The notes beneath the pieces were generated by a model that was not told the DNA's origin, ran no database searches, and saw only the letters and a list, made by a program, of their open reading frames with translations. A program made the position numbers and the translations under genes. A DNA stretch of 37,835 nucleotides from a virus. Shown piece by piece: positions 18,537 to 37,238 of this stretch. The stretch's first letter is position 1, and each line of letters starts with the position of its first letter. The stretch spans positions 1 to 37,835 of IMG/VR virus record IMGVR_UViG_3300020438_000111. The stretch is one strand, 5' to 3'.

Positions 18537-18542
18537 GTTACT

Positions 18543-20168
18543 TTAAAATTCCAGGATGATCTTAATGTCTTCTTTTTGTCTACTATCTCTAGTGACTAAC
18601 TTTCGATTGTCAATGTATATGACATCACCAGTTGTTTTATTTATCTCTGGATCAGCAAGACCATCGGTAAATTCAACTCCCAAATTTATTTGTTTGGTAG
18701 AATCTATAGTTGTTGTTACTCCACTAAATGAAGTTTGGATACCTTTATTACCTGTTATTGAAGAATCAGAAAATACAAGACCATCTGCCGATCCACGAAA
18801 AGGTGTAAATTTAGAAAAAGTAGCAATTCCAGTATAATCAGTTTGATCGAGTCTATTTCCAAAATATAATGATCTATCTTGACTATACTTCATAACACCT
18901 GTTTCTTTATCATAAGATGATACGTACCCTTGTGCTACTTCATTGGTAGCTGGGTTTGTTTGTGTAAAAGTACTACCTATAGCAGTGCCTGTAAGTGCAT
19001 TTGCTTGACTGGTATTAAATATAGAAGGATCAAATTTAATAGATCCTAATGCTGAATACTGATTACCAGTAAAAATTGCATTTATGGAAGAATATGTGGA
19101 TGGATTCTTAACAATACCAACTTGTGAGAATTTTGTAGAAGTTGGAAAATCTTTTGTTGAATCATCAAATCTAGAATAAATCAATACTCTATCTGCTCCC
19201 AATTCTTTATAGATATCATACCCATGACCTCTTGAAGGAGGAATAATTGGAACTAATTTAGCAGAGGTAAATCCACTTACTTGGAAAGTGGATAAATCTA
19301 CAATACCATAAGTATATCCAGATCCACCAGAAGTAACTACTGCTTTAGTAATTATACCAGATGTAGTTGTAATGGATACCTGACCTCCAGTACCATCACC
19401 TAGAATAGGGACAGTTACAGTTGAATTGGGTTGATATCCAGCACCACCATTTTCAATATATACTTCCTTTATTTGATTGAGATTTATTTCAGAATCTCCC
19501 GCTTCTCTAACACTTTGAATTTGTGAATTAGTAGATGTCTCCCAATCATTAGGTACAACAATATATTCAGTAGAATCAAATTTTATAATATCACTTGGAG
19601 AAATTGAGAATAAAAACTTCCAAACATATCCATCATCTCCAGCTGAATTTGGTTCTAAATCAGTAAAAGTTGGTTCATCTTTAGAAGTACCACCCTTTCC
19701 ATTTGGATTTGCATCCAAAAGTGTTTTATTTTGCCATGCACCAGAAGAACCATTATCGATACAAATATAAACGTTAAAATCACTATTAACTACATAATAA
19801 TTTGTATCATAAAGCCTTGCTGATTGTGAATTGGGAGATTTTGCATCAATACTATAATCTTGACGATACATATCGTAAGGAGTATTAGTAGTCCATTGAA
19901 CTTTTCTAATAACTCTTCTAATATTTGTACTATTGATCTTTTTCCCAAAAAGAGCAGCACTCTTATAAAAACCTTCATATTGAAGATTGTCTACAGGATT
20001 TAATGGTTTATTTGAGACCCAATCAGAAGTTCTACCAAATCCTGGATTTGGAATTGTAGGATTAGATAGTCCTAGAAAGACATAATAAGCATTATTAGTA
20101 TCTAGTACAGAGTCTACAAAATTACCAGCATTTGCTATTCTAAATTGATCTGTTACTTGAGCAGACAT
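18543..20168 (-). CDS. gp8: Baseplate wedge subunit gp8
   Basis: The 541-residue protein matches gp8. The N-terminal region contains NNAYYVFLGLSNPTIPN and later DGYVWKFLFSISPSDIIKF, and the C-terminus ends in a VIYIDNRKLVTR block followed by QKEDIKIILEF; this arrangement is diagnostic. T4 gp8 has 334 residues. Part of the extra length is an insertion at about 238-295 with two GxGY units (IENGGAGYQPNSTVTV and VTSGGSGYTYG), the same module found in gp14 and the gp7-like giant. A perfect T4-type late octamer (20186-20193) ends 17 nt before the ATG, and no Shine-Dalgarno sequence is evident in those 17 nt. gp8 normally forms dimers that bind gp7 and gp6 in the wedge. Confidence 0.92.
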   Translation of the reverse strand: MSAQVTDQFRIANAGNFVDSVLDTNNAYYVFLGLSNPTIPNPGFGRTSDWVSNKPLNPVDNLQYEGFYKSAALFGKKINSTNIRRVIRKVQWTTNTPYDMYRQDYSIDAKSPNSQSARLYDTNYYVVNSDFNVYICIDNGSSGAWQNKTLLDANPNGKGGTSKDEPTFTDLEPNSAGDDGYVWKFLFSISPSDIIKFDSTEYIVVPNDWETSTNSQIQSVREAGDSEINLNQIKEVYIENGGAGYQPNSTVTVPILGDGTGGQVSITTTSGIITKAVVTSGGSGYTYGIVDLSTFQVSGFTSAKLVPIIPPSRGHGYDIYKELGADRVLIYSRFDDSTKDFPTSTKFSQVGIVKNPSTYSSINAIFTGNQYSALGSIKFDPSIFNTSQANALTGTAIGSTFTQTNPATNEVAQGYVSSYDKETGVMKYSQDRSLYFGNRLDQTDYTGIATFSKFTPFRGSADGLVFSDSSITGNKGIQTSFSGVTTTIDSTKQINLGVEFTDGLADPEINKTTGDVIYIDNRKLVTRDSRQKEDIKIILEF

Positions 20169-20185
20169 ATTAATAGTTTTTTAGA

Positions 20186-20193
20186 TATTTATA
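20186..20193 (-). promoter_or_regulatory. T4-type late promoter upstream of gp8
   Basis: A perfect TATAAATA octamer in the 46-bp gap between the gp7-like giant and gp8, again exactly 17 nt before the ATG. It gives gp8 and the following DUF4815-like giant a promoter of their own, 13 kb downstream of the gp25 promoter. Confidence 0.8.
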
Positions 20194-20214
20194 ATAGTTA
20201 ATATAAATGAGAAT

Positions 20215-23200
20215 TTACTCGGCAATAATTGCCCCAGTACCTCTAATTCCCTCATCTCTTCTTGAGATGGTGGGGAATGTAGTTAATCCAGAATTTACAG
20301 TAAGACCACTAACACCAATTGATATTGGATTTGATCTACTAAATGTTCCAGTTAATTTACCCCAAGAGAAATTACCAATTGGACTTGATTCAGATCCAGT
20401 AGCAGCAAGTCCAACAACATTGGTATTATGTGCAATATTACATGTAATAATACCCAAATTGGTACTAGTAGTAATTTGTGCAATTCTATAGATGTTATCA
20501 GCAAATGTTGTACCAATTCCAACTACACCTTTACCAGATTGATAAATTGAACTTAATCCTGTTCCAACAATAGTATTATTGATAGAAATTGGAGAACCAG
20601 CACTCAATCCAGTATGAGTTCCACGAGTATGGAATACAATTGCTAAATCAGTTCCAACACCAACCGCAGTACTAATACCAGTAACAATTCCACTAAATCC
20701 AGTAGCAACACCAATATTTCTAACTAATTCAGTTTTAAATGTTGGCAATGCTGATATAACCTGTGGAGCTGAAGTTAGTGTATAACCTAAACCTGGCATT
20801 GTAATTGTTGGGGTTCCTGTAAGGACTCCATTAGTTATAGTAACAGTTGCTGTTGCGGTAGAACCTATACCAACAGTACCATCTGGTTTAATAAAGCTTC
20901 CTATACCAACTGGTGGTGCAGCAATAGAAATTGAAGTTGTTGCTCCAACATAACCAGATCCCCCACTAACAATAGTGAGTCCTGAAATAGTTCCAGTAGC
21001 AGATACTGTGGCAGTTAATGCAGCAGCAACTGGATTTACACTATTATCAACTATAAATGCATCAAAGTTTGCAGTATATGGTGCATCATAATCAAATAAA
21101 TCAATATTTTCTACATATATTTGACTTGATTCTGTAGATGAGAAATCACTAATAATTTTTGTAGTTGGGAAAATTAATGGCTCAAGTGAACCTCTAGATT
21201 TGTAAATTAATTCTCCATCAACAATCTTATCATGCTTCTTCCTAGTCCAACTTAAAGATCTAGAAATACCTTCAGTGGTTATTCCTGGCCCAACATACAA
21301 ATTAGTTTGTATAGTATCAGCACTATCAAGTAAACTAACAGTCCTATCTTTCTGATTTTTAATATTCCTCAATCCACCCAATTGAACAAGATCTCCTTTT
21401 TCTATAGAAGGTTGTACCGTAGTAATTAATTCAGTATCTAATCCTGGAGAACCACGATAGAAGAATATTGAAATATCATCTTCAGGTTTAGGTGGTTCTG
21501 AGAATACAAATGTTGAACCTCCACCAAATTTATATGCAGTTCCTGGTTGTTGAATTACACCATTCATTACAATTAATAATAAATTTGAAAGATTGATATT
21601 AAATGTTGAAGTTTCTCCAGCACCAACAGTATCAAAACTTAGTAATTCACCACCATATTTTAATTCAAATCTCGTTCTAGATCCATTTTGTAAATTTTTA
21701 ATATCATCAATATAATCAAATTCACCAAATTGCCATGCTGAGAAATTATCATTAAATGTGTCTATTACAGTAAATTTAGCTTCGTCTAATGGATTAGTTA
21801 AATTACGATCTGTTGCCAATCCAACTAATTTAAATACATCACCACGTCTAAATCCATATCCATTTCGTTCAATTTCCCACTTAGTAATTCCAAATAAAGT
21901 GGATCCAACTCCAACTGTGGATGATGCACCAACTTCAACATTCAATAATAATCCAGTTCCACAATCTGTAGTTGAACCTACATCCAATCTAGAAACTCCA
22001 GTTATTCCTAAACCAGCATAAGAAGGTTCTGTAATAATTAATTGTGGATTTGCATAGTTTGTTCCAGCATTGCCAATTGCAAGGCTTAGGGTTCCACCAA
22101 GACCCACTGTAGCATTAACGACACCCCCACTACCTACACTCGATCCAACATTAACGGTAAGAGTATTGGTTGTTTTAGATGTAATTGCTGTAAGTATTCC
22201 AGCAACAGGATCAGTTGCTCTTGGATATGAATGATCAGATTTATAATCATCTTTAGAGCATGTAAAGATTAAAGAATCAGTTCTAAATCCAATATTGCTA
22301 CTAACAGCAAGACCATGAGAAGGTACAGTTAATATTAAATCACCACTGCTAGGATTATATGAAGCACCAGTTGCAGTATATCCTACACCTGCGAAAGATG
22401 CTGCATAGAAACTAGTAGAAATACCACGAACAAATTTATGTGCAAATGGTATATCTGTTACCCCAATAGAAACACTAGAACCAATATATCCTGAACCATA
22501 GAATGCATTTCCATAGAATGGTATAACATTACCACCACCAACATAGACATGTTCAATAGTACTAATTCCAACATTTGTAGTAAATCTATATGTTGGTGAT
22601 GACCCAACATTAATATTAAATTCTGTAGTAGAAGTCACATATACTGCAGTAGTAACACCAGCAATAGGATCACCAACTCTTGGATATTCATGTTGAGTTG
22701 CATGATCATCTTTATCACATGTAAATGTAATGGAATAATTATCTAAAGTAATAGTATCACCAGTTGCCATTCCGTGTGCAGCAGCAAATGTTAACTCTAA
22801 AAGTCCTGTTGTAGGAGTATATGTTGCACCATTAGGTGTTTTTTGATTACCAGATTGTGAACCACTAGTTACATTAACTGCATTATTATCTGCACTTATA
22901 AATCTATGTACATAATCACCATTAGTAACTCTAAGAATACTATAATCAATACTTGTACTACCTAAACCTACTGCTGCTTCTGGGAATATTGTAGTTGTTA
23001 TGCCAGCATGAGGAGCTGCACAAGTAAATTCAAGACCAGCTAATTTAACTTGATCAACTATACCTAATTCAAAATTATGAGCATCTCTTGTGGTTATCTC
23101 TAGAATACCCGTTGAATTATCATAATTTGCTGTAGTTATAGCATTATTGGGTCCTGTAGAAGCAGTTGAAACTAAATTTTTAATAGTTCCACCAACACCA

Positions 23201-26200
23201 ATTTCAACATAAGTATTATTTCCAACGGTAGGTGCATATCCTAACCCTGGAGTAGATCCAAGAGAAATTATTACACCACCTCGTGGTAACTGATTCTCAT
23301 TAATATCGGATTCATTAATAACAATAGTTCCATCAGCAGTAGTTTTAATACCAGTAAATTGAACACTAGTTATTCCTGTAGGTGATGTTTGTTCTATTAT
23401 TTGGAAATTATTTGTTGGATTATTGTCAGAAGTGGGTCTTTGATATATGTTATTAATCAATAACAATCCATTACCACCAGTTGTACCCAAACCAACTGTA
23501 TTTGCTCCACCAACCTTTAAAGTAAATGAACTTTGTATTCCACTAAATTCTGATGAAATATCATCATAAATTTGATTACTATCATAATCATTTCTTAAAA
23601 ATACTCTCCCACCAAACTCTGAAGTTGGGAAAGGTAAATTGCTATCTGTGGTAGTAATTTGTGGATTACCTTTAGGTGCATTTGTAAAATAAACTTGATC
23701 TTCAATAATATTATAAGAACCCCTATAAACCCTAACTGTTGTAGTATTTGTATGTGCAGTTGCAGAAGATCCAACAAATGCTCTTTCAACTTCAACAAGA
23801 CTTGTTGTTCCAATACCAGTAATAGGACCAAAAACATCATCCCCAGTACCAATATCCTGTATTCTCATATATTCATCATCAACTCTAAGAATGTCATTAG
23901 GTGCAAGAGATGATATTCCACTTAATGAGAATATAGTTGATGTTGTACCAATACCAGTGCTGCCAAGAACAGATACAATATTATTTTGTAAAGTATGATT
24001 TACAGGACTGAAAGCTATTGGAGATTGTATTATATTATCAATACTAATAATTGATTTTGTATTAGAAAGACTCATTGAAAGTTTATGAGCATTTCCAGTA
24101 CCAACACCAACAAAAGTAACTCCTGTTCCAGCATTAGCTAATGCTCTAGTTGTTGCAATAAAGAAACTATCTGCATCATCCCTAATGGCAAAGACATTTG
24201 ATGGTAGTGTATGAACACCTGCTGCACTCTCATATTGCATAGGTGTAGATCCTATACCAATAAATGTTGAATTTGCACTATATACCAATTCCTCACCAGT
24301 TCTAAAGTAATGATCATCTATTGTAAATTTACCTGTAACTAAATTAAGTGCATTACTATCGGAAGGATCAAATGTTTTTCCAAAAATAGGAGTATTATTA
24401 GATTTTAATGTAAAATTCTTCATATTAACTCTCTCACCATTTATTGCATTATACTGATATAGACCAATTTCTTCTCTTGCTCTTCCATAATTTAAAGGAT
24501 CTGTTTGAGCAATATTAGAAGTATCAAAATCTTGATAAATTCCCAAGTTAAGTGCAGACACTTCAATATTTGCACTTGTAAATGCACTATCTGGATAGAA
24601 TTTTAATTTAACTTCACTTCCATCAAATACACCACCAAATGTTCCTATACCAGATCTGTCATCACTTAATGCAGTACTACCAATAGATAAAAATGGAGAT
24701 TGTTGAACATACACATCAGTTGTATCATGACTTATAAGAACTTGATGGAGTGCTTTTGTAGATCCAACACTAACTTGAACAACAGACCTACATGCATCAA
24801 ATAATGAAGAAGTTAATCCAACTACATCAAACTCCGTACCTGTCTTAGTTGAATAATTAGATTCGTATAAAGCTGTTCTTTCAGCACCATCTGGTTGAGT
24901 AGGAATCTTAAATTTATAGGTACCAATACCAACAGAAGTTAATCCAAATCCAACAATAGTAGATTTAATTTTTATTTGATCACTTAAATCATTTTCAAAA
25001 TCTATAGAAAATGCTGACCCATCAATACTACCATCAAAGGAACCCATTAAAGTCTCTGATATTGTATCTGTATCAGAATGAGTATCCATATAGAATTGTG
25101 AAACATAAGTATTAGTTCCATCATGATTCACATATAGTTCAACATAATTCATTTCATTAGTTCTTGAATTAACTAACTGATTCCTTACATGGAACGAACT
25201 AAATTTTGTTTTATCAACACTAATAATAGATGTGGTTGTTATCCCACTAACAGCAGTCGTAGCAATTCCAACGTAACTACTTAAATTTACAAATCCCACA
25301 GATTGAGTACCTACACCAGCTATATCAGTTGGGAATGTTGTCTTAATTTCTTTAAGATCATAATCGAAATCATATGGATTAGGTTGAGGAGTAAATCTAA
25401 GATATGATTCTCCCAATCCATCATCAGATATTGTAAATATTCCAAGGCCAGTAGCAGTTTCATCTGGCATATATTTGTTTGTCAATATTACTGAATTGGT
25501 ACCATCATTAAGAATTGTCACTTCTGATAATTGAATATTAGTTTTAGTTAAATTAGAAACTTTATATAATATGTTTTGATAAGAAACACTTGGTGATAAT
25601 TTTTGAATATTTAAAAACTCACTAGGATCACCATCTAAATTTGAAAATTCGTTACTTATATCATCAATTGTTAAAACTTCATTACTCTTAGCAACAATAT
25701 AATCACTTAACTTTACACTATCAAATCTTATAAATTTAGATGAAACTCCTGTTTCACTAAGATCATACGCAGAATCAAAATTATAAATTGTATCAACTCT
25801 ATTATCACTTATAATATCTTGAACAATTGATGTTTGATCTGTACTTCCAATACCTACAACAGTAGTTTGACTAACAACTGTATCTGCAAAATTCTTTAAT
25901 CCACTAGTATGAAGTAAAGAACTTACTGGACTTCTTAATTCTTGAAATTCCTTAGAACTCTTAATAGAATATGAAAGATTTTGATAATAATCATTATCAG
26001 GAGTTACTTGATTATCTTCACTAAGTTTTCCAGTATCGTTAGACCATCCAATATTCTTCTTAACAGAAAAATTGACATCATATTCACCAAGATTATTTGT
26101 TAAACTTGCAATTGTAGCTATAGTTCCAGATTCTTTACCTGAAATAATATCCCCTACAGATAATCTATCTCTTCCCAAAATTTTAATAAAATCATCATCA

Positions 26201-29200
26201 GATTTTGTAATAACTAAATCCAATCTTACAGAATTTCTAATTAATACTTCACCAATAATAAAATTATCTGGTTTCTGTGTTACTGTAAATTGTGGGTACT
26301 TATTTTTGTTTATAAGAACACCTATAGAATTTTGATCCGTTACTGCTATTCCAGTATTAGTGGTTATGCCACTATAATCAACAACAACTTTATCATTTAA
26401 TCCACTAGTATCATATTCTTTAACTTTACCATACCTATAACCATTATCTTCACTATTAAATCCAGATCCTTCTGTTCCCAATCCAACAACACCTTCAATA
26501 TAAACCTCATCATTTACAGCAAAAGGTATAGTATTCCAAGTAGTTGGTGTATTAATAAAACATGTAAATATCCCACTATTATTACTCATTACAGTCTTAA
26601 TACCAATTCCATTAGTATTATCAGTTACAAATAACTCTACTGGAGTATCTGGAAGTCCACTTGGTAAAGCATTAACTTCAATATTACCAATGGATGTTCC
26701 ATTTAAGTTAGCTTTTAATAATCCCCTATCAATTTTTTTTCTAGTGGTTGAATTGACAATCACTACATTTGGTGCTGTTATGTAATCAAAACCACCATCA
26801 GTAACTGTAACAATACCAATGGTATTAGAATCTTTAATAACTATTGATGGTGAAATATATGCAGCTGGTCTTAAAGTATTATCTGCAGAATATTCAAATC
26901 CTTCATTAATAACTCTAATTCTACTAATATTACCAATTTCATTTGATTCTGCAGTTACATATCCTCCTGCACCTTCAGTTGAAGATGTTCCAACAAAGGT
27001 AGGCAATTTTTTATATCCACTACCAGTAGATACAATATTAATACTATCAATACCACCTTTTGTATTGAGTGAATCTGTACTGTATGTAATTGATTCACAT
27101 TGAGATGAAGTATATGATAAACTTTCGGGATATTCCTTCAATGATAAAGTGAACGTTGTATCACCAACACCAGAAAGTGTATATGTTGAATTATATGAAC
27201 TATCAACAAATTTAATTTCTGAACGATTATGAACTGATGGATCTGAAGTACTAATAAATCCAGATTTCTCAAGTGCATAATATAAAACTTCTGGCATACT
27301 ACTATTGTAAGAAATAGTAGTTTTTGCGGTAGTTGCAACACCTACTACTGCTTCATTAGATACATTAAATGCTGTAGTTGCAGTAGAAACAAATTCATTT
27401 TTAAAATCTTTATCATAATACAATTTAAACTTATAATCTTGCAAAGAGGAATGAGTCAAATCAAATACTAAACTATTAGTTTTAACTACATTAATTTGAG
27501 GATTAATTGTATAAAGTCTATGTGTAACTGCTGGATCTGTTGTCCATCTTACAATATTAGGAGGATTGGATGTAGAATCAATATAAGTCTCACACAAATG
27601 AATAGTATTATCATCAACAACATATACAAAATATTCACCCTCAGATAACCCTGTAGGGTAAGTTGAACCTATAGCTAAATCATAATATACCTTATCTCCA
27701 GTTACAAACTTATGACCTGCAATTGTAAAGGCATCAGTAATACTTGAAATACCAGCTTGTGCAACTCTAAATGGATCTGTAAGAATATATCCACTAGAAG
27801 TATTTCTAGTGACTACAACTGAACTAGCCGTTCCAACTCCAACAGAAAGATTTGGTTTAATATCTAAAGTAACAATATCACTTTCCTTTAAATTGTGGTA
27901 AGTTGATACAGAAACAGTAGAATCTAATTTTTGTACTTTTCCAGTTTCTTGTGTATAATTACTTTCTAAAGAATATAAATCACTATCCTGTCCACCAGCA
28001 CGGAAAAATACATTTTGGAAATCCCCACTTGTAGTTCCTATACCAGTTTTAATACCAATTGTATTTGGACTTAAATCAGAAACATAAAGAGTGGTGGGTA
28101 AATTGTATTGAGTAGAAGTAGAAGTATCGGATATTGCAATTTGAGTACCAGCATTTGTTAATGTTACTTGTTCATTTTGAACAAAATCATGTTGTGGTGC
28201 ATAAATTGCTTGTGTTGGAATATCTTGTGTAATTTGAGTATCGCCAAACTGATAAGTTACTGAAGATGATATTCCACTTAAAGTTCCAAATCCAACATTT
28301 TTTGTAGGGTTGAAATATAATTTATTATTTAATTTAGAATCAAAAAATGGTATTGATTTATCAATAACAAATGAATTTGAAATAAAACTTAAACCAGTTG
28401 TTGCAGTGTGAGCAGTTCCTGCAGTACTTCTTCCAATTCTCAATATTTTTTCATTTTCAAATACATTTAACAATTGTACTGTTTCAGATCCTATGTTTAT
28501 TGAACTTCCAATAGAAATATTATTTGGAACACTTGAAACATATATTTCTGTAGTAATTCCACCAGAGGAAGCTGGTAACATTGGTTCTATTAATGATGAT
28601 GTAATAGAACTAACTCCAATAGTATATTGTCCAGTTAAATTTGATAATTCGGTAGATAATCCAGAAACAACTATATTGTCTCCATTATTCCAATCATGAC
28701 TTGGTAATATATTTACATTTTGTTTTCCATCACTACTCCAAGTAAATATTGCACTTTGGTAAGTTGAGGTGGCAGTGCTTACATTTACTATATCCTTACC
28801 TTTTAATGAGGAAACTCTAGCAGAAAGGCCACTACCTTCAGTGCCATCATTATTAAATGTTAAAAGATCATTTATCTTATAATTATCACCTGAATCAACA
28901 ATATTCAACTTAATAATAGATCCTTGTGTTACAGATTCTACCTCAACTTTTTGATTGTCTATTTCATTAGATTCTATAATAAAATCATTATCAACAAATT
29001 TTTCAGCAACTCTATACGGGAATGTATTTCTTACTAAATTAGAATTTTCAAAATCAAAATCTTGTGCTAAATTCTGATCAACTAATGGGGATCTATAACA
29101 ATCTCCAATAAAGTAAGGAAATTCTGGTATACCAGTCGTATTAGCTATTCCTGCAAAATATGCATATGTACCTTCAGGGAATTCTGGAGTTTTACCAAAC

Positions 29201-32200
29201 CTACCGTTGTTTATATCTAAATCACCATTATTAGTAAACTTATAGTCTTCTATAAAATAACCATTATCAAAACCTGCAGGTCTATCAGTTACATTAGATA
29301 CATCTAACTCATATCCAGAAATTAAGCGTCTTGCATCAACAGTTTCATCTGGATTATCGTATCCATATGGGCCATATATTGGATTTCCATCATATGCCCA
29401 TCCAATAATTTTAGAAGCAACAGTAGATGTAGAAATACCAGATACTTTTTCACCAAAAGAATCTCTGATAGTGTTTCCATATCCACAAACATTATAACTT
29501 AAATTATCTCCACTTTCTAGTAATATTTCATCACTATTATATTTTTTACTTATATCAATAGTTAATGGTCTAACATTACAGTCTATAAAGGCATTCTTTC
29601 CTGCTGAGATGACTTGTATTGAAGTATCTGTGGCAGAGTATCCTATTCCCGTTTTAACCACTGTAACGCCTGTTACCTTCTGATTAACAATAGTTGGCCT
29701 TAGTTCAGCACCAGTTCCCATTCCAGAAGAATCGATAATTTTTATAGTTGGAATAGAATGATATTCACTACCACCAAATTGAAGATTAACTCCTGTAATT
29801 CTTCCATCTATAATAATTGGTTCTAATGAACACTGTTTACCATTTTTTACAGTTACTATTGGTTTATTATGGAAATTTAATGTAGTACTACCATATCCAG
29901 TTCCAGCAGCATACAAATAAGAATCAATAATAGAACCTCTAACCGTAGGAGTTAAAATTATCTCTTCAACCACTTGAGTAGTTGTACCCAATCCAACTGA
30001 AGCATATTTTACCGAAACGGAAATATTTGGGTATGCAAAATTCTGATATCCAGATCCTTCACTTTCAAGATCAACAAATTTTTCTTTTTTGAAATTAGAT
30101 GTTATTGTTCCAGCAATTCCAGCATCTGCAAGTTTAAAATTATCATCATCTACTTTAAATACACTATAATAATTTGTTGTTGTTACTATGCCAGTGCTTG
30201 TAGTCAATCCTGAAATAGATCCACTACTATCATCGTGCGTATATACTACCTGATCACCATGATTAAAACCATGACCCTTAAATATAATATTATCATATAT
30301 TGTAGAAATTCCAGATGATGGGACTTTTAATTTTCTATTAGTAAATGTACCCCCATCTACAACATTAATACCACTCAATGTTTTTTCGATAGGAAGAGTT
30401 ATAAATTTATGTACACCACTACTATTAGTTCCATTAAGTGTTATTGTATTAAGTCCTACAATAGAATCATTAGCAGATTCAAAAACTCTGATAGTATTAT
30501 TATCAATAACATGTGCAAAATAGTTTGCATTAGTAACTAATGTAGAAGTTCCTATACCAACACCAATACCCTTACTACCATTAGAATTATAAATTACTTC
30601 TTGATGATTTGTAAATCCGTGTTCGGTTAAAAAAGTAACTGTATTAGTTGTACTACTAATACCACCACCAGCTGCTTCTAATTGTGCATTAAATTCAACA
30701 TCTCTAGATTTTGAAAGAATTAGTGGTTCTAAAACAGCCTTACCATTACCACCACCAACAGCATCAATAGATAATATATCTTTAATATTAAAATTTTGAG
30801 GATCTACAATAACTTCTTTAATAGATCCACTAATAACTGGTTGAAGTAAAGCAGTAGTACCAGCACCACTACTAACAGATAATTGTGGTAAATTTATTAC
30901 ATCATAATCATCTCCTTGATCTAAAACTTTTGTTGATTCTAAAGGTCCATAATATATTTTATCATTTGATTTATAATTAACAATTTCCACACCATTAATT
31001 AACATTCCTATAGTTCCAGGAAGTGTTTTGGTTTGTTCTCCTACTTCAATATTTGATTTGAATGGGAATTTTTTAAATGCATTTTGAGGTCCAATTAATT
31101 TGGATTTTTGAGATGCTAAAGTAAAAGTATGTCCAGTCTCAGTAGTTGTACCAGATACTGATTCTAATTTGATAAAATTAGAAGTATTAACAGTTGCTCT
31201 TGAACCATAAATTCTAATTGTCTGTTTAGTAGAAGACTCACTAGCAATACCAACAAAATATGTTCCACCATTCTCTAATCCAACATATGGATCACTAGAG
31301 GCACTATAAGAAACTTCATCACCGTTGATAAAAGGTACTGCATTATCGAAATACAATCCACCATATTTAAAAGTGGTATGTATTCCTGCTGTTGTAGTTA
31401 CTTCACTTAAAGTGGGATTAATAACAGAAATTACGTTTACTTTTATAGGATATGTAAATGTATTAGTAAATCCAGTTCCTACAATAGATCCTGATGGTAA
31501 AGAATTGGATGCTATATAAAATTCTTCATTTTCATCATCAACATAAACATTTTGTACATCAGAAACAAGATGTGATGCTGATAAAGATGCACCAATACTG
31601 ACAGGTAAATTTAATTTTCTTCTAATATCATATTGACCACCACCTGCAGCAGATAAATCAAGATTAACTCTATTTGTCTTAGTAGTCCACCAGAAAGTAC
31701 TGTCTAATGTAGGTGCAGTAACTTCACCAGTGTCAATAACAGTATTTGAGGATCTTTTAAATAAATCTACATTATCACCCTTCTTTAAGCTAGATCTATC
31801 AATAGTTTGATACAATGGAAGATTGAATGGATTAAAACCAGTAATAGTAAATTCATCATTTACTTGATATCTTACACTTGTATTATAAATCCAAGAGTTT
31901 GCAAATATTTCTTTATCAGTTCTATCTTTTGCTGGATTTTCTATCAAATCTCCAAGATTATTAACAGCAATAATTTGACCTTCATCTACATCAACATATT
32001 TGGAAATCTGATTAAATTCTGATAATACACCATTAAGCCTTACTTCTACTTTCTTAGTAATATCACCATTTTCATATCCAAAGTAAATTTCATCATTTCT
32101 TACACTATCTGTGGGATTTATTTGATCATCAATTCCTGTACAACCATAAAATTGATTGACACTTTTACTAGTATAGTTAATATGGGTGTTAATTCCTGAT

Positions 32201-33246
32201 ATGATAGTACCTGTAGCACCAAATCCTACTGTAGAATCAACAGTAATAATAGAACTACCCACACTAACAGTGTTTATAACTCTTGATGATGGTGTTATTT
32301 TAAAATTACCTTGAATTGCTGGTGTGGAATCATCAAAACCTACAAAAAGTGATATTTTGTAGTACTGTAATGGTTGGCTTGAAGCAGCACTTACCCTCGT
32401 AAACCCTTCTATTTCAGAAATAGACGCATTCGTATCTAAGTCATCTGCTTTATATAAGGTTTGGCCTACTAATTTTGAAATATCCCCCGAAATTACATCT
32501 CCAATTGCAACCTGTCTTCTGATATACTCAGCATCTGAAGGTTTAATTAAGTATTCTTCTAGATTGATTATCTTTGGTTCTTCCCCATATAGAGCATTGA
32601 ATAAAATTCTAAAGGATTCATCAGTTCCTTTTGATTCATATATGATTCTAGATTCCTTTATAAAGTTACCAACATCTAAATCAGAGTCAAAATTAGAATC
32701 TTCTAATCCTGGTGTAAAGGTGAATTTCTGTTTTTTATAGAATTTTTGAAGAAATAATGAACTTAGGTTCTGAATATACGAATCTGTAGCATGACCAACT
32801 ATTCCAGACGAAGAAAATACCAATTCTTCATCTTGCAAATCAGTTCTATATGAAGTGATTCCACTAAAACCACGAATACAACCAGTAAAACTGGTCAAAT
32901 TTGTGCCAATTCCAGTATATGTTATGATTTCATCATCAATTTTTAATAATCCGTACTGTTTTGGAAATCCCTTTGTGCTAGAAACATCAATTGTAGTAGT
33001 TGTAGTACCTATTCCAGCAGAAAGAGTTGTAAATCCAACGACAACTTCAGGAATTAAATTATCTAACTTTAAATATTGATCAAGATTATCGATAATATCA
33101 ACAGGCCCACCTTGATATTCTTGAGAAATGTAATATTGTTTTAAGAAGTCTACAAATTTAGGATTTTCACTTAATACAAAATCAGGTATTTGGTTATCAA
33201 TAATTTGTTGAATCTTTACTCTTGATTCAAAACCAGTCTGTATCAT
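20215..33246 (-). CDS. gp7: Giant gp7-like baseplate wedge protein (4343 residues)
   Basis: One uninterrupted frame of 13 kb between gp6 and gp8, the T4 gene 7 position. Residues 1-275 resemble, from memory, the C-terminal core of T4 gp7: KFVDFLKQYYIS, IIYESKGTDESFRILFNALY (about 200-220) and LVGQTLYKADD (about 260-270). A roughly 60-residue module is inserted near 65-125. The remaining 4000 residues are not in T4 gp7 (1032 residues). They include repeat modules of the H-x-F-x-x-G-D-x-V-x-Y type (about 640-1050 and further copies), many G-x-G-Y units, a YHYH-like domain (about 1279-1387), a triplicated module at about 3372-3705, and an MNGVIQQPGTAY fibre-type motif near 3890. The end, FPTISRRDEGIRGTGAIIAE, is of a kind I recall from marine homologues. 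It follows gp6 by 4 bp. Confidence 0.85.
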   Translation of the reverse strand: MIQTGFESRVKIQQIIDNQIPDFVLSENPKFVDFLKQYYISQEYQGGPVDIIDNLDQYLKLDNLIPEVVVGFTTLSAGIGTTTTTIDVSSTKGFPKQYGLLKIDDEIITYTGIGTNLTSFTGCIRGFSGITSYRTDLQDEELVFSSSGIVGHATDSYIQNLSSLFLQKFYKKQKFTFTPGLEDSNFDSDLDVGNFIKESRIIYESKGTDESFRILFNALYGEEPKIINLEEYLIKPSDAEYIRRQVAIGDVISGDISKLVGQTLYKADDLDTNASISEIEGFTRVSAASSQPLQYYKISLFVGFDDSTPAIQGNFKITPSSRVINTVSVGSSIITVDSTVGFGATGTIISGINTHINYTSKSVNQFYGCTGIDDQINPTDSVRNDEIYFGYENGDITKKVEVRLNGVLSEFNQISKYVDVDEGQIIAVNNLGDLIENPAKDRTDKEIFANSWIYNTSVRYQVNDEFTITGFNPFNLPLYQTIDRSSLKKGDNVDLFKRSSNTVIDTGEVTAPTLDSTFWWTTKTNRVNLDLSAAGGGQYDIRRKLNLPVSIGASLSASHLVSDVQNVYVDDENEEFYIASNSLPSGSIVGTGFTNTFTYPIKVNVISVINPTLSEVTTTAGIHTTFKYGGLYFDNAVPFINGDEVSYSASSDPYVGLENGGTYFVGIASESSTKQTIRIYGSRATVNTSNFIKLESVSGTTTETGHTFTLASQKSKLIGPQNAFKKFPFKSNIEVGEQTKTLPGTIGMLINGVEIVNYKSNDKIYYGPLESTKVLDQGDDYDVINLPQLSVSSGAGTTALLQPVISGSIKEVIVDPQNFNIKDILSIDAVGGGNGKAVLEPLILSKSRDVEFNAQLEAAGGGISSTTNTVTFLTEHGFTNHQEVIYNSNGSKGIGVGIGTSTLVTNANYFAHVIDNNTIRVFESANDSIVGLNTITLNGTNSSGVHKFITLPIEKTLSGINVVDGGTFTNRKLKVPSSGISTIYDNIIFKGHGFNHGDQVVYTHDDSSGSISGLTTSTGIVTTTNYYSVFKVDDDNFKLADAGIAGTITSNFKKEKFVDLESEGSGYQNFAYPNISVSVKYASVGLGTTTQVVEEIILTPTVRGSIIDSYLYAAGTGYGSTTLNFHNKPIVTVKNGKQCSLEPIIIDGRITGVNLQFGGSEYHSIPTIKIIDSSGMGTGAELRPTIVNQKVTGVTVVKTGIGYSATDTSIQVISAGKNAFIDCNVRPLTIDISKKYNSDEILLESGDNLSYNVCGYGNTIRDSFGEKVSGISTSTVASKIIGWAYDGNPIYGPYGYDNPDETVDARRLISGYELDVSNVTDRPAGFDNGYFIEDYKFTNNGDLDINNGRFGKTPEFPEGTYAYFAGIANTTGIPEFPYFIGDCYRSPLVDQNLAQDFDFENSNLVRNTFPYRVAEKFVDNDFIIESNEIDNQKVEVESVTQGSIIKLNIVDSGDNYKINDLLTFNNDGTEGSGLSARVSSLKGKDIVNVSTATSTYQSAIFTWSSDGKQNVNILPSHDWNNGDNIVVSGLSTELSNLTGQYTIGVSSITSSLIEPMLPASSGGITTEIYVSSVPNNISIGSSINIGSETVQLLNVFENEKILRIGRSTAGTAHTATTGLSFISNSFVIDKSIPFFDSKLNNKLYFNPTKNVGFGTLSGISSSVTYQFGDTQITQDIPTQAIYAPQHDFVQNEQVTLTNAGTQIAISDTSTSTQYNLPTTLYVSDLSPNTIGIKTGIGTTSGDFQNVFFRAGGQDSDLYSLESNYTQETGKVQKLDSTVSVSTYHNLKESDIVTLDIKPNLSVGVGTASSVVVTRNTSSGYILTDPFRVAQAGISSITDAFTIAGHKFVTGDKVYYDLAIGSTYPTGLSEGEYFVYVVDDNTIHLCETYIDSTSNPPNIVRWTTDPAVTHRLYTINPQINVVKTNSLVFDLTHSSLQDYKFKLYYDKDFKNEFVSTATTAFNVSNEAVVGVATTAKTTISYNSSMPEVLYYALEKSGFISTSDPSVHNRSEIKFVDSSYNSTYTLSGVGDTTFTLSLKEYPESLSYTSSQCESITYSTDSLNTKGGIDSINIVSTGSGYKKLPTFVGTSSTEGAGGYVTAESNEIGNISRIRVINEGFEYSADNTLRPAAYISPSIVIKDSNTIGIVTVTDGGFDYITAPNVVIVNSTTRKKIDRGLLKANLNGTSIGNIEVNALPSGLPDTPVELFVTDNTNGIGIKTVMSNNSGIFTCFINTPTTWNTIPFAVNDEVYIEGVVGLGTEGSGFNSEDNGYRYGKVKEYDTSGLNDKVVVDYSGITTNTGIAVTDQNSIGVLINKNKYPQFTVTQKPDNFIIGEVLIRNSVRLDLVITKSDDDFIKILGRDRLSVGDIISGKESGTIATIASLTNNLGEYDVNFSVKKNIGWSNDTGKLSEDNQVTPDNDYYQNLSYSIKSSKEFQELRSPVSSLLHTSGLKNFADTVVSQTTVVGIGSTDQTSIVQDIISDNRVDTIYNFDSAYDLSETGVSSKFIRFDSVKLSDYIVAKSNEVLTIDDISNEFSNLDGDPSEFLNIQKLSPSVSYQNILYKVSNLTKTNIQLSEVTILNDGTNSVILTNKYMPDETATGLGIFTISDDGLGESYLRFTPQPNPYDFDYDLKEIKTTFPTDIAGVGTQSVGFVNLSSYVGIATTAVSGITTTSIISVDKTKFSSFHVRNQLVNSRTNEMNYVELYVNHDGTNTYVSQFYMDTHSDTDTISETLMGSFDGSIDGSAFSIDFENDLSDQIKIKSTIVGFGLTSVGIGTYKFKIPTQPDGAERTALYESNYSTKTGTEFDVVGLTSSLFDACRSVVQVSVGSTKALHQVLISHDTTDVYVQQSPFLSIGSTALSDDRSGIGTFGGVFDGSEVKLKFYPDSAFTSANIEVSALNLGIYQDFDTSNIAQTDPLNYGRAREEIGLYQYNAINGERVNMKNFTLKSNNTPIFGKTFDPSDSNALNLVTGKFTIDDHYFRTGEELVYSANSTFIGIGSTPMQYESAAGVHTLPSNVFAIRDDADSFFIATTRALANAGTGVTFVGVGTGNAHKLSMSLSNTKSIISIDNIIQSPIAFSPVNHTLQNNIVSVLGSTGIGTTSTIFSLSGISSLAPNDILRVDDEYMRIQDIGTGDDVFGPITGIGTTSLVEVERAFVGSSATAHTNTTTVRVYRGSYNIIEDQVYFTNAPKGNPQITTTDSNLPFPTSEFGGRVFLRNDYDSNQIYDDISSEFSGIQSSFTLKVGGANTVGLGTTGGNGLLLINNIYQRPTSDNNPTNNFQIIEQTSPTGITSVQFTGIKTTADGTIVINESDINENQLPRGGVIISLGSTPGLGYAPTVGNNTYVEIGVGGTIKNLVSTASTGPNNAITTANYDNSTGILEITTRDAHNFELGIVDQVKLAGLEFTCAAPHAGITTTIFPEAAVGLGSTSIDYSILRVTNGDYVHRFISADNNAVNVTSGSQSGNQKTPNGATYTPTTGLLELTFAAAHGMATGDTITLDNYSITFTCDKDDHATQHEYPRVGDPIAGVTTAVYVTSTTEFNINVGSSPTYRFTTNVGISTIEHVYVGGGNVIPFYGNAFYGSGYIGSSVSIGVTDIPFAHKFVRGISTSFYAASFAGVGYTATGASYNPSSGDLILTVPSHGLAVSSNIGFRTDSLIFTCSKDDYKSDHSYPRATDPVAGILTAITSKTTNTLTVNVGSSVGSGGVVNATVGLGGTLSLAIGNAGTNYANPQLIITEPSYAGLGITGVSRLDVGSTTDCGTGLLLNVEVGASSTVGVGSTLFGITKWEIERNGYGFRRGDVFKLVGLATDRNLTNPLDEAKFTVIDTFNDNFSAWQFGEFDYIDDIKNLQNGSRTRFELKYGGELLSFDTVGAGETSTFNINLSNLLLIVMNGVIQQPGTAYKFGGGSTFVFSEPPKPEDDISIFFYRGSPGLDTELITTVQPSIEKGDLVQLGGLRNIKNQKDRTVSLLDSADTIQTNLYVGPGITTEGISRSLSWTRKKHDKIVDGELIYKSRGSLEPLIFPTTKIISDFSSTESSQIYVENIDLFDYDAPYTANFDAFIVDNSVNPVAAALTATVSATGTISGLTIVSGGSGYVGATTSISIAAPPVGIGSFIKPDGTVGIGSTATATVTITNGVLTGTPTITMPGLGYTLTSAPQVISALPTFKTELVRNIGVATGFSGIVTGISTAVGVGTDLAIVFHTRGTHTGLSAGSPISINNTIVGTGLSSIYQSGKGVVGIGTTFADNIYRIAQITTSTNLGIITCNIAHNTNVVGLAATGSESSPIGNFSWGKLTGTFSRSNPISIGVSGLTVNSGLTTFPTISRRDEGIRGTGAIIAE
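22132..23133 (-). repeat. Triplicated module in the gp7-like giant (CxKDDxxxxHxYPR)
   Basis: Three related units: residues 3372-3460 (22870-23133), 3473-3555 (22582-22830) and 3627-3705 (22132-22368). Each opens with Y-x-x-x-x-G-x-L-x-x-T, then a hydrophobic strand F-T-C. Copies two and three continue with CDKDDHATQHEYPRVGDP and CSKDDYKSDHSYPRATDP and end in NVGSS; copy one keeps only the FTC start and part of the tail. They are 154 residues apart (copies two and three). Confidence 0.8.
29086..29412 (-). other. YHYH-like domain within the gp7-like giant
   Basis: Residues 1279-1387 carry the core of the YHYH domain family: GWAYDGNPIYGPYGY at 1282-1296, then GYFIEDYKFTNNGDLDINNG, RFGKTPEFPEGTYAYFAG and PYFIGDCY. 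The family usually has a Y-H-Y-H signature ahead of this core; it is not present here. The domain is otherwise found in bacterial extracellular proteins and in marine phage structural proteins, with unclear function. Confidence 0.75.
30095..31330 (-). repeat. Tandem H-x-F-x-x-G-D-x-V-x-Y modules in the gp7-like giant
   Basis: Three copies of a module of about 70 residues lie at residues about 640-707 (FINGDEVSYSASSDP), 874-948 (HGFTNHQEVIYNSNG) and 990-1050 (HGFNHGDQVVYTHDD). Each then has a YF/YY strand and an I-D-D-N-T-I-R-V-type strand (VIDNNTIRVFES, VFKVDDDNFKLAD), and most end with G-x-H-K/T-F. Further copies occur near residues 1686-1760, 1846-1914 (HKFVTGDKVYYD, then VYVVDDNTIHL) and 2977-3056 (HYFRTGEELVYS). 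Confidence 0.75.
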
Positions 33247-33250
33247 ATTA

Positions 33251-35218
33251 TTATACTCTTATTAATTGTCCGTTTAAATAACTTGATGTGTAGAAATCTT
33301 TAACAAAGGTTGTTCCAGTTATTTCGTCACCAGAACTAATCACATCTCTAACAATATTTATTTTACTTTTTGAAACGCTAAAATTCAGGTAAAGTTCACG
33401 CAATCCAACAACATCATTTGACTCTGGAATTGCTTGAATTTCTACAATTCCAGTTCCATCAACCGTAGATGTGATATTTGTCGTGGAAATAAGAATTTCT
33501 CCCTTCATATAATCAACAGTTCCTGCAGATTTACTTACAACATTGAAAGATCCATCATTTTGTACCTCTACAAACGAAATAACACCAGTTTTAAGGTTAA
33601 AATCTGGTGTATCTGTTATGTAAACAGGTCTTGAATTTTCAGGAATATAAAAACCAGTTGATTTTATGTTAAATCCTTCAAAATTTACATGAAATCTGTT
33701 TCCATAACATAATTCATACTGTGCAAACTGATTTAGAGCACACTTTAAGTTTCTTCTAATGATAACTTTAGTAATATTTGATGTAATTGCAACATGAGTG
33801 TTGTCAATTATGCTTTGCAACTTACTATATTTGAATCTACCTCCAAATTTGTTAACTTCTAACGAATTTCCGTAAGATGTAAGTGAATTAGCAACTAATG
33901 CATTTAAAGAATTAGCATCTGTGACCCTTGAATCGTTGTAATAGACCGAAGAATCAATTTCAACATACAAAATCTTAAGATCTTCTAATTTTTGGTTAAT
34001 TCCTGATACTGTATATTGCTTTAATTGTGATAATATCCTAGATTTATTAAATCCAGAGACAAAAAAACCATTTTTTGGTTTAATACTTATAATTACGTTA
34101 CCAAATTGAGGTGGATCCATCTCTTCACCACCTACAACAGCTACAGATTCGGTATCTGGGTAGATTTTTTTAACAATTGCTTCATAATCTCGTGGAGTAA
34201 CTGCTCTATACTGTGAAGAATAGGTTCTAGGAGCAAAATATTTAATGGAATCCACAGATTCTATGTCAGATCCGTTTTGTGAATTTAAATTTGTTGTTAC
34301 ACTAGGTAATTGTTTTAATTCTTTAGTTAAAACATTAGAACTAGTTGTGGAATCTCCTGTAATTCTTCCTGCATAAGAAAAAGTATTACCCTTACCTATT
34401 CCATTACCATCTTTTCCATTTGTAATAATATAATTTACTGTAATTACAGTTTCGTTTTCTAATTTTTTACCAAAAAAACCATCACCGAATAATAACTCAT
34501 ATTGCTCATCTTGTATTTCTTGTATCAAATAGATTTCTGATGTAGAATCTATATTTAAAATATTATCAACTATTGTATATTCTGTACCTAAAGCACCTGA
34601 AGGATTAACATCATTTGGCCCATTGATATAAACTTTTAGTGTAGATGTATCAATATTTGAATTATTTAAAATGAATCGTTGATCTAATGATGCATCAACT
34701 ACAAATTGTTTTGATAAGAAAGTACCTTCTTTTATTTGAATATTATTAAATTTTGCAACCCATGAATCGTCTGGTTCTGGATTGTCAGGATCATCTCCAC
34801 TAAAAACTGCAGGTGTTGATACGTTATCTGTTATAGAGAATAGGTAAGAACTATCATTAGTATTACCAACACACACTAGGCCTGGTTTTAAAGTCGCTAC
34901 TTGAGTATTGGTTGCTATATTTACCGTGAATGATACTTGTGCCGTTGCTGCCGTTTTAGAGCGTGGTACGTACCCTATATTTCTTGCTAGTGATACTACA
35001 TTCTCTCTCATTGTTGCAGAATCCAAGAAGGATTCATTCACAACCATATTTGAGTTGAATGCAGTAATGTATGTGTTATATGCTAATGTATCAATTAAAA
35101 TAGAAAAATTAGACCCCTCAAAGTCAAAATCCGTAAAGTTGGAATTAGAACGGAGATAGTCTTTGATTGAGGTCTTTATTTGATCAAAGTCAAGATTTTG
35201 AAATTTAGTAAAAGGCAT
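33251..35218 (-). CDS. gp6: Baseplate wedge subunit gp6
   Basis: At 655 residues it matches T4 gp6 (660), the protein that joins neighbouring wedges into the ring around the hub. The N-terminus (FTKFQNLDFDQIKTSIKDYL, then FEGSNFSILIDTLAYNTYI and ATMRENVVSLARNIGYVPRS within residues 1-87) is highly conserved in gp6. Near residues 238-270 it has the LLFGDGFFGKKLENETVI strand-turn of baseplate J-like proteins, and a RAVTPRDYEAIVKKIYPDTE segment further on. The start lies 1 bp after the gp25 stop and the stop 4 bp before the giant gene, so gp25, gp6 and the gp7-like protein form one translational series. Confidence 0.95.
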   Translation of the reverse strand: MPFTKFQNLDFDQIKTSIKDYLRSNSNFTDFDFEGSNFSILIDTLAYNTYITAFNSNMVVNESFLDSATMRENVVSLARNIGYVPRSKTAATAQVSFTVNIATNTQVATLKPGLVCVGNTNDSSYLFSITDNVSTPAVFSGDDPDNPEPDDSWVAKFNNIQIKEGTFLSKQFVVDASLDQRFILNNSNIDTSTLKVYINGPNDVNPSGALGTEYTIVDNILNIDSTSEIYLIQEIQDEQYELLFGDGFFGKKLENETVITVNYIITNGKDGNGIGKGNTFSYAGRITGDSTTSSNVLTKELKQLPSVTTNLNSQNGSDIESVDSIKYFAPRTYSSQYRAVTPRDYEAIVKKIYPDTESVAVVGGEEMDPPQFGNVIISIKPKNGFFVSGFNKSRILSQLKQYTVSGINQKLEDLKILYVEIDSSVYYNDSRVTDANSLNALVANSLTSYGNSLEVNKFGGRFKYSKLQSIIDNTHVAITSNITKVIIRRNLKCALNQFAQYELCYGNRFHVNFEGFNIKSTGFYIPENSRPVYITDTPDFNLKTGVISFVEVQNDGSFNVVSKSAGTVDYMKGEILISTTNITSTVDGTGIVEIQAIPESNDVVGLRELYLNFSVSKSKINIVRDVISSGDEITGTTFVKDFYTSSYLNGQLIRV

Positions 35219-35219
35219 G

Positions 35220-35621
35220 TTATCTTGTTGCCTCTAAGAGGAATGAATATTCTTGAGTTGGAAACTCTTGTCCTATGATGTCGTAAATTACCGTTACATT
35301 GAATGTATGCGTATCTGGTTGAGCATCAACTAGAATTTGTGCATTGGTAATTCTTGGTTCGTAATCATCTAATGCAATTTCAATTTGGCTCTGAATCGTA
35401 GAAGCAGTACCAAAGTCAACAAATTCAAATAAACTCTTATAGACATCTGATCCAAAGTGCGGATTGAAGAACTTTTCACTCGGTATTGTTTGAACTATAT
35501 TCCTTACAGATTTACGGATTGCATCCGCATTGTTTAGAACTTTTAGATCTTTTGATACGGGATGTGGTTCAAAGGATAAACTAATATCTTTAAATGATCT
35601 TGATATCCTTGTAATTGCCAT
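35220..35621 (-). CDS. gp25: Baseplate wedge protein gp25
   Basis: A 133-residue member of the GPW/gp25 family (T4 gp25: 132). It contains the family core: LKVLNNADAIRKSVRNIVQT, then IPSEKFFNPHFGSDVYKSLF (about 46-65) and IEIALDDYEPRI. gp25 anchors the first sheath ring to the inner baseplate together with gp6 and gp53. In T4 gene 25 lies in a different cluster; here it is directly upstream of gp6, as in marine T4-like phages. A perfect late octamer TATAAATA (35639-35646) ends 17 nt before the ATG. No purine-rich ribosome-binding site is visible in that short leader, the same arrangement as at gp8. Confidence 0.95.
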   Translation of the reverse strand: MAITRISRSFKDISLSFEPHPVSKDLKVLNNADAIRKSVRNIVQTIPSEKFFNPHFGSDVYKSLFEFVDFGTASTIQSQIEIALDDYEPRITNAQILVDAQPDTHTFNVTVIYDIIGQEFPTQEYSFLLEATR

Positions 35622-35638
35622 TGGACAGAGTTTTTATT

Positions 35639-35646
35639 TATTTATA
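35639..35646 (-). promoter_or_regulatory. T4-type late promoter upstream of gp25
   Basis: A perfect TATAAATA octamer (TATTTATA on the plus strand) lies in the 40-bp gap between the 48-residue gene and gp25. T4 late promoters consist of this octamer alone, read by the gp55 sigma factor. Exactly 17 nt separate it from the gp25 ATG. It should drive gp25, gp6 and the gp7-like giant. Confidence 0.8.
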
Positions 35647-35661
35647 CCCAGTTCCTAATAT

Positions 35662-35808
35662 TTATCTACCTTGTCCTCTGTACTTCTTACGAGCCGAGTT
35701 ACGAGAGGTCGCCGTATATTTTGAATGCTTGCCTTTTCCTTGTCGAGTCTTCTTCGGCGGTGACTGTATAAAGTCTCCTCCACTAATCCCACCAGTTGCT
35801 TTAGCCAT
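35662..35808 (-). CDS. Very small basic protein, unknown function
   Basis: Translating from ATG 35806-35808 gives 48 residues to TAA at 35662-35664: MAKATGGISGGDFIQSPPKK followed by a Lys/Arg/Gly-rich tail that ends in ARKKYRGQGR. About one residue in four is Lys or Arg and there is one acidic residue, so the protein is strongly basic and probably unfolded alone; nucleic-acid or ribosome binding is a reasonable guess. I recall short proteins with a K-K-T-R-Q-G-x-G motif and a Y-R-G-Q-G end near gp25 in marine T4-like phages, which supports a real gene. Its start overlaps the stop of the upstream 55-residue gene in TAATG, and it ends just before the gp25 late promoter. Confidence 0.8.
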   Translation of the reverse strand: MAKATGGISGGDFIQSPPKKTRQGKGKHSKYTATSRNSARKKYRGQGR

Positions 35809-35975
35809 TAATTGTCCTCATAAATTTCAGTTTTAATTGTGTCTGGATGAGGAGAACCAGTCTGGTAGTATTCCAGTGCAAAGTCCTCCATTCTGTGAAA
35901 GTATTCTATCTGTCCTAGTCCAGTGAATACTTCCTTATCATCGATGATGATTCTATATAACTCTGGTTTTTTCAT
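35808..35975 (-). CDS. Small conserved-type protein, unknown function
   Basis: An ATG at 35973-35975 opens a 55-residue frame: MKKPELYRIIIDDKEVFTGL, then QIEYFHRMEDFALEYYQTGS and a PHPDTIKTEIYEDN end. The protein is acidic and mixed alpha/beta, with no membrane segment. Its first 23 bases overlap the 3' end of the glycosyltransferase gene in another frame, and its stop overlaps the start of the 48-residue gene (TAATG), so the three are a coupled unit. A weak AAGG lies upstream of the start. The pattern resembles small hypothetical proteins I recall from marine T4-like phages next to gp25, but I know no function. Confidence 0.75.
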   Translation of the reverse strand: MKKPELYRIIIDDKEVFTGLGQIEYFHRMEDFALEYYQTGSPHPDTIKTEIYEDN

Positions 35976-36714: not shown

Positions 36715-36751
36715 AATCGAATTCGCTTTTATTGAATACTATAGTATGCAT

Positions 36752-36780
36752 ATCATACAACATTATATAGTAATTGTCAA
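36752..36780 (-). promoter_or_regulatory. Sigma-70-type promoter for the glycosyltransferase cluster
   Basis: In the minus-strand sense there is a consensus -35 TTGACA (36775-36780), a 17-bp spacer and a -10 TATGAT (36752-36757, five of six). Transcription should start near 36745, about 30 nt before the glycosyltransferase ATG. This is the host RNA polymerase pattern used for early or middle phage genes, unlike the TATAAATA boxes elsewhere in the window. A TATAAT also lies within the spacer, without an evident -35. Confidence 0.75.
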
Positions 36781-36953
36781 TAAGATCCATCCCTTATTAA
36801 TTCTCTTTGTTCTGTATAGTTTACCGTAATTTCTGTATAAGATAACTCGGAGTTATATTCCTTATTAAGTAGTTCCCATATGAGGTTGAAGTGCTCCTCA
36901 CTTAATTCTTTAAATATGCAACGATGCTTGAAGTATATGTGATACTCTTTCAT
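36777..36953 (-). CDS. Small conserved-type protein, unknown function
   Basis: The ATG at 36951-36953 opens 58 codons: MKEYHIYFKHRCIFKELSEE, then HFNLIWELLNKEYNSELSYT and an ending QRELIRDGSY. An AGGAAAAAGA ribosome-binding site precedes the start. The start overlaps the stop of the 56-residue AbrB-like gene (ATGA). The stop TGA at 36777-36779 lies inside the -35 box of the downstream sigma-70 promoter. The form (short beta strand with Y-x-I-Y-F-K-H, then a helix with E-E-x-F) is common among tiny marine T4-like phage proteins I recall; no function is known to me. Being co-encoded with an AbrB-like protein raises a toxin/antitoxin-like possibility, but nothing in the sequence confirms it. Confidence 0.7.
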   Translation of the reverse strand: MKEYHIYFKHRCIFKELSEEHFNLIWELLNKEYNSELSYTEITVNYTEQRELIRDGSY

Positions 36954-37120: not shown

Positions 37121-37238
37121 ATTTGTGAAACCCTACATTGCTTTTATATAGTACTGGAAATTTTTATAGAGCAATAGAAATATAGCTGCCTTGGGTAACA
37201 CTTTGTAGGTTAGGGTAGTTACGCAATTTTAATATAAG

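Follow-up and report, generated by a model that had tools for sequence, protein, structure and literature searches.

The window analyzed here is a 37,835-nucleotide stretch of viral DNA that makes up the entire record IMGVR_UViG_3300020438_000111, a 37.8-kb fragment of a genome. Its largest open reading frame (ORF), at positions 20215-33246 on the minus strand, starts with ATG and continues without an internal stop for 4,343 amino acids (aa). Based on phrog_2885 and synteny, we assigned this ORF to the baseplate wedge protein gp7, in what appears to be a giant form with a split core. The flanking genes, all on the minus strand, encode gp6 (33251-35218; PF21379, E 1e-17; phrog_219), the expected partner of gp7 in a (gp6)2-gp7 heterotrimer, the wedge subunit and sheath initiator gp25 (35220-35621; phrog_261, E 3e-50), the wedge subunit gp8 with a GSGY-type module (18543-20168; PF09215, E 2e-12; phrog_438) and a 2,437-aa VrlC/DUF4815 protein that is not gp7 (11223-18536; PF16075, E 4e-60). 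The PF21379 and PF09215 neighbours thus confirm that a 4,343-residue ORF lies between gp6 and gp8, as the preliminary description of this DNA had it. The gene order of the window is gp25-gp6-gp7 ORF-gp8-VrlC, followed further on by gp13-gp14-gp15-gp16-gp17-gp18-gp19-gp20, with gp16 and the terminal gp20 fragment of the contig named by position, via synteny with P-SSM2. Next to gp25, positions 35953-36714 encode a 253-aa protein that matches phrog_1574 (E 3e-118), a group without known function, and has a weak match to a family of phage glycosyltransferases.

The window terminase (4091-5743) is 84% identical to that of Prochlorococcus phage P-SSM2, indicating that the contig derives from a P-SSM2-like cyanophage, near the P-SSM2 group of Kyanoviridae. 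The slot order gp25-gp6-ORF-gp8-VrlC is common to the window, P-SSM2, P-HM2, Bellamy and phiM7. Giant gp7 proteins are already catalogued, both as phrog_2885 ('baseplate wedge subunit', 4,179 positions) and as the 5,195-aa 'gp7' of P-SSM2. The gp7 ORF matched phrog_2885 with 3,438 bits over residues 2-4330 (profile positions 2-4178), and since this match runs from end to end, the ORF is not a chance reading frame. The first 900 residues matched 462 phage records, all named as cyanophage or marine virus. An assembly artefact as the source of the open frame was ruled out by the end-to-end profile match and by dozens of independent relatives.

The N-terminal motifs that had been quoted as resembling the C-terminal region of T4 gp7 are present, and BLASTP aligned residues 195-267 with T4 gp7 727-789 (33% identity, E 0.001). 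Profile comparison (hhalign) matched residues 194-300 to T4 gp7 726-813 with P 4.6e-8, while control comparisons of the window core with reversed, column-shuffled or N-terminal T4 gp7 sequences gave no match (P 0.1-0.9). With gp92 of phage phiM7 as a bridge, P values of 8e-11 to T4 643-828 and 5e-15 to window residues 166-318 were obtained. A family of 36 compact homologues from IMG/VR matched the window family over residues 6-318 (P 4e-35) and T4 gp7 over 638-837 (P 4e-17). On the window, the profile of these 36 sequences found pieces at 33055-33222, 32398-32790 and 25831-26106 (E 7e-11, 2e-10 and 4e-15, respectively).

The first two of these pieces delineate what we call core part 1. Its first half, core part 1a (residues 9-62; 33061-33222, minus strand), is a putative helical hairpin that is supported by the compact profile (E 7e-11), by a phiM7/S-CREM2/RHph profile matching the first tile of the window protein (P 1e-6) and by modelled helices. 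Five of its columns (Q19, P21, F34, Y38 and Y39) are invariant among 70 relatives, and the hairpin is predicted to be part of the gp6/gp7 core bundle. Core part 1b (residues ~161-318; 32293-32766, minus strand), assigned by profile comparisons, contains the helices with the pattern Y.SKGT..S..ILF..L and a beta domain, and corresponds to T4 gp7 ~720-837. Conservation along the protein is highest in core part 1, with a mean identity of 61-69% versus ~45-50% in most of the arm. The N-terminal domains I-IV of T4 gp7 (1-640) did not match the window core (P 0.9) and were found nowhere else in seven complete relatives. Because the 242-aa orthologue of phage XM1 also lacks these domains, we do not treat them as defining gp7. 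There is good support for assigning the ORF to gp7, in a T4-type marine cyanophage, and for equating its first ~320 residues with T4 gp7 ~638-837.

An AlphaFold model of window residues 1-420, built with 70 relatives, was of low confidence in the helical core (pLDDT about 35-65). A structure search of the PDB with this model, the helical part of which is weak, returned no gp7 match, and sequence searches of the PDB with the window core or its profile gave chance hits only. We did not read the failed match as refuting the gp7 assignment, given that these helices are expected to depend on gp6 partners. Given the weakness of the window model, the structural comparison was made via a compact homologue (L321), for which residues 1-302 were modelled with moderate confidence (pLDDT 68, pTM 0.37). 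Foldseek with the L321 model returned only three significant PDB matches, 9f4a (Klebsiella phage, E 1e-11), 5iv5 (T4, E 7e-10) and 5hx2 (T4, E 9e-8), and the next-best match had an E of 0.06. All three entries contain gp7 with matching chain length. The structural match to T4 gp7 foreseen in the preliminary description was hence obtained with the compact homologue (E 1e-11 to 9e-8) and not with the window's own residues 1-420. For the family, the likeness to gp7 is thus supported by predicted structure through its compact member.

The third piece lies far from the N-terminus. The C-termini of the homologues RHph_I1_18, phiM7 and S-CREM2 share a segment of the form YYQ..SY..I......HPaG...Fg, like T4 864-890. 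When a profile of these three small homologues was scanned against the window protein in 54 tiles, strong matches occurred solely at tile 1 (P 1e-6), tiles 81/161 (P 4e-9 and 1e-11) and tiles 2321/2401 (P 2e-10 and 5e-10). The last of these contain core part 2 (residues 2401-2478; 25813-26046, minus strand; YYQNLSYSIK...LHTSGLKNFAD), which would be the equivalent of T4 gp7 864-913 and was identified by the compact profile (E 4e-15), the tile scan and a dedicated HMM (p2 HMM). Neither T4 nor S-RIM8 was used in building the p2 HMM, which found S-RIM8 residues 3449-3515 at E 4e-20. It also found eight of eight T4-type gp7 proteins at the equivalent of T4 864-913 (E 3e-6 to 4e-5), with the best noise at E 2. 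Direct profile comparison of core part 2 with T4 was weak (P 0.016), ranking right behind the part-1 tiles; it is mainly the p2 HMM that points to the likeness to T4. Sequence comparison gives good support to a bipartite gp7 core, with part 1 at residues 9-318 and part 2 at 2401-2478, 2,080 residues apart. We found no description of a split gp7 core in the open-access literature.

A different architecture had been proposed earlier, in which the wedge core lies entirely at the N-terminus and a single C-terminal arm begins at about residue 280. The position of part 1, at residues 9-320, agrees with this proposal. However, part 2 is located at 2401-2478 and occupies the matching place in every long relative examined, including S-RIM8, where it was recognized blind. 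A wholly N-terminal core is thus very unlikely. Of the earlier picture of a conserved wedge core plus a C-terminal arm, the N-terminal position of part 1 stands, but half of the extra mass sits between core parts 1 and 2, leaving 'core plus C-terminal arm' unsupported.

It has been stated that gp7 is absent from pelagi- and cyanomyophages and is substituted by VrlC (PMC7029224). This would agree with the fact that ordinary similarity searches failed to detect T4 gp7 in the majority of these genomes, and with the label 'VrlC' on the slot protein of S-MbCM7. However, the gp7-slot ORF was the only match to the core columns of the compact profile in each of eight complete genomes, and with T4 gp7 as query the sole match in P-SSM2 and Bellamy was again the slot ORF. 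Both core parts are found in this ORF alone, and the compact core matches gp7 structures. A separate gp7 gene elsewhere in the genome, which the preliminary description had named as evidence against its assignment, was not found in any of the eight complete relatives. VrlC, in turn, is a separate DUF4815 protein encoded downstream of gp8: PF16075 was not found in the gp7 ORF and is present in the ORF at 11223-18536, and the VrlC of HTVC008M carries the same domain. With the gp7 core confined to the slot ORF and VrlC a separate protein, the statement that VrlC substitutes for an absent gp7 is unsupported; we regard this explanation as the least probable of those considered, and the published claims of gp7 absence in these phages look wrong.

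Several database names at this locus are in conflict. In S-MbCM7 (19983-30584 and 32558-41020), gp7 is named 'VrlC' and the DUF4815 protein is named 'gp7'. The gp7 of HTVC008M (33435-36485) is labelled 'head closure Hc2', yet it matches PF23786 (Baseplate_wedge) with E 8e-13. Wrong names in these two records may underlie the claim that gp7 is missing.

Comparison with relatives placed the additional sequence of the window protein at three sites, located near residue 70, between the core parts and after part 2. In different relatives, the sequence at these sites ranges between tens of residues and over 2,000. Site I (residues ~70-160; 32767-33039, minus strand) holds a beta module that is absent from phiM7 and belongs to the same family as modules at ~320-375 and ~3100; its beta part comprises residues 72-121. 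A module inserted in the N-terminal core had been predicted correctly, although its size is about 90 residues (70-160) relative to phiM7 rather than the 60 given. Site I is empty in phiM7; the window has about 90 aa there, and S-RIM8 has about 600 aa. Site II (residues ~319-2400; 26047-32292, minus strand), defined by the core profile boundaries, is a 2,080-residue insert of beta modules between the core parts, compared with a few tens of residues in T4. Site III is the C-terminal extension of 1,865 aa (residues 2479-4343; 20218-25812, minus strand), delimited by the p2 HMM and by homologue comparison.

In every examined homologue outside the T4 group, core part 1 is at or near the N-terminus. 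The start of core part 2 ranges from residue 219 to 1093 among 181 smaller IMG/VR homologues, which have C-terminal extensions of 1-735 aa, and from 2266 to 2493 in the giant IMG/VR relatives of the window. None of the giant relatives longer than 2,700 aa lacks core part 2. The slot protein measures 528 aa in RHph, 1,006 in phiM7, 1,016 in HTVC008M, 1,937 in S-CREM2, 3,533 in S-MbCM7, 4,067 in Bellamy, 4,343 in the window, 4,454 in P-HM2, 5,195 in P-SSM2 and 6,395 in S-RIM8. In the S-RIM8 protein (18171-37358), ~600 residues separate the first hairpin from the KGT helices, and part 2 is at 3449-3515. Note that the gp7 slot of S-SKS1 (HQ633071, from 20001) is without an annotated gene, and its ORF stops after 707 aa, perhaps owing to a sequencing error.

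The insert and tail are rich in T, S and G, and beta-rich where modelled. Self-BLAST of the whole 4,343-aa chain showed no repeats and tile BLAST few, so that a profile-profile comparison of tiles was required. This revealed HGF..GD.V.Y domains at about 600-715, 840-950, 970-1060, 1830-1910 and 2970-3060, GSGY modules at about 765-850, 1040-1200, 2040-2120 and 4085-4160, and members of the site-I module family at 72-130, ~320-375 and ~3100. A tandem pair of ~100-aa domains (residues ~3445-3544 and ~3601-3704; 22135-22914, minus strand) was detected by BLASTP (E 1e-18) and hhalign (P 2e-35). Regular-expression motif counts for the GSGY class were uninformative. With only a few domain families recurring detectably, the 'about 4000 residues of repeats' described earlier were overstated. 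GSGY-type beta modules also occur in gp8 (19305-19748) and gp14 (7112-7861) of the window, suggesting that several proteins of the tail and neck are decorated with modules of one class.

Within the site-II insert, residues 1272-1367 (29146-29433, minus strand) match the YHYH domain (PF14240; E 1e-22, 81 bits, cut-off 25). The two core parts enclose this domain in the window, P-SSM2, Bellamy, P-HM2, S-MbCM7 and S-CREM2, and a search for it in the phiM7 and RHph_I1_18 homologues gave no match. Elsewhere, a role as metal-dependent tail hydrolase has been predicted for YHYH (PMC7824862).

In six pairs of close relatives, dN/dS was mostly 0.04-0.2 in core, insert and tail alike, with a maximum of 0.34 in one 74-codon stretch. 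Core part 1 often showed 0.04-0.1, and the site-II insert 0.11-0.16 in relatives. These ratios indicate that all gp7 segments are under purifying selection. They bear out the selection proposed for the 13-kb frame, for which the absence of stops by itself had been too strong a claim of proof.

With more than 90% of its chain beta-rich, a YHYH domain and modules shared with gp8 and gp14, the ORF could also be read as a tail fibre or adhesin residing in the gp7 slot, with a vestigial wedge segment, host binding as the main function and the wedge role minor or lost. However, no segment is better conserved than core part 1, and the core is supplied by no other gene. We consider such a fibre or adhesin highly improbable and retain the reading as a wedge protein.

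How does this wedge protein compare with known systems? The closest, P-SSM2 gp7 (PSSM2_111, 5,195 aa, Kyanoviridae), occupies the same slot, is homologous from end to end and has the core parts and YHYH domain in the same order, but shares 57% over the first 400 aa and has arms of unequal length. T4 gp7 (5IV5, 5HX2) likewise lies between gp6 and gp8, and its segments 638-837 and 864-913 follow each other in the order kept in the window. Its core, unlike that of the window protein, is preceded by 640 N-terminal residues (domains I-IV) and followed by domain VI, and the core parts are a few tens of residues apart; the window protein is without the N-terminal domains and has 2,080 residues between the core parts and 1,865 after them. 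Sinorhizobium phage phiM7 gp92 (1,006 aa) and Rhizobium phage RHph_I1_18 EVB91_234 (528 aa) share with the window the slot after gp6, with part 1 N-terminal and part 2 near the C-terminus. They differ from it in having no site-I insert, a site II of ~280-730 aa and essentially no C-terminal extension.

More distantly, XM1 gp17 and TssG of the type VI secretion system (T6SS) are the third chain of a gp6-type heterotrimer and have an N-terminal helical hairpin (PMC10457771, PMC6300606). XM1 gp17, the T4 gp7 orthologue, has 242 aa and no giant insert; its likeness to the window protein is drawn from these papers, not from sequence. It holds two sets of tail spikes via loop 80-106 and the C-terminus 201-242 (PMC10457771), positions of the same sort as the expansion sites of gp7. 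The gp7 homologue of S-CREM2, related to the window gp7 by our sequence comparison, was detected in virions by mass spectrometry with 91 unique peptides (PMC10665884).

In conclusion, the ORF very probably encodes the gp7 wedge protein, with a core in two pieces, and its insert and tail may serve as arms of the outer baseplate. By analogy with the structures of T4, XM1, diffocin and the T6SS, core parts 1 and 2 would fold together. The core would join two gp6 chains as a (gp6)2-gp7 heterotrimer under gp25, six per baseplate, pairing with them in the core bundle and the trifurcation unit, and the contraction signal would travel via the gp7 chain. The beta-rich modules of insert and tail would exit the wedge at fixed surface sites and then return. 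The arms most likely build the outer baseplate, where they would dock receptor-binding parts and touch the cell surface. They may also relay the signal of cell contact to the sheath by way of the wedge, and may do part of what domains I-IV of gp7 and gp10-gp12 do in T4. Cyanomyoviruses lack g10, g11, g12, g34, g35 and g37 (PMC2984593), which makes building or docking the outer baseplate the likeliest job for the arms; by analogy, we give it about an even chance.

More tentatively, and with doubt prevailing, in oceanic T4-like phages the wedge protein itself may have become the outer baseplate, its peripheral layer standing in for the separate tail-pin proteins gp10-gp12 of T4 and relaying the signal of host contact straight to the gp6 ring. 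As part of the same tentative scenario, the loops of a small ancestral gp7 core would have gained beta modules totalling thousands of residues at three fixed sites, the YHYH domain would possibly be enzymatic, and six copies of the protein would amount to ~2.8 MDa.

The most abundant viruses of the ocean include T4-like cyanophages and pelagiphages, the baseplates of which have been described as being without T4 gp7. The 'missing' gp7 appears to be present but hidden in a giant protein, where it is split by giant insertions. This provides one basis for the conflicting names gp7, VrlC, head closure Hc2 and virion structural protein. The domain boundaries define testable parts: a core of ~320 plus ~80 residues, a 2,080-residue insert with the YHYH domain and a 1,865-residue tail. 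The comparison of relatives suggests as a general rule that wedge proteins of the gp7 type expand at a small number of fixed positions.
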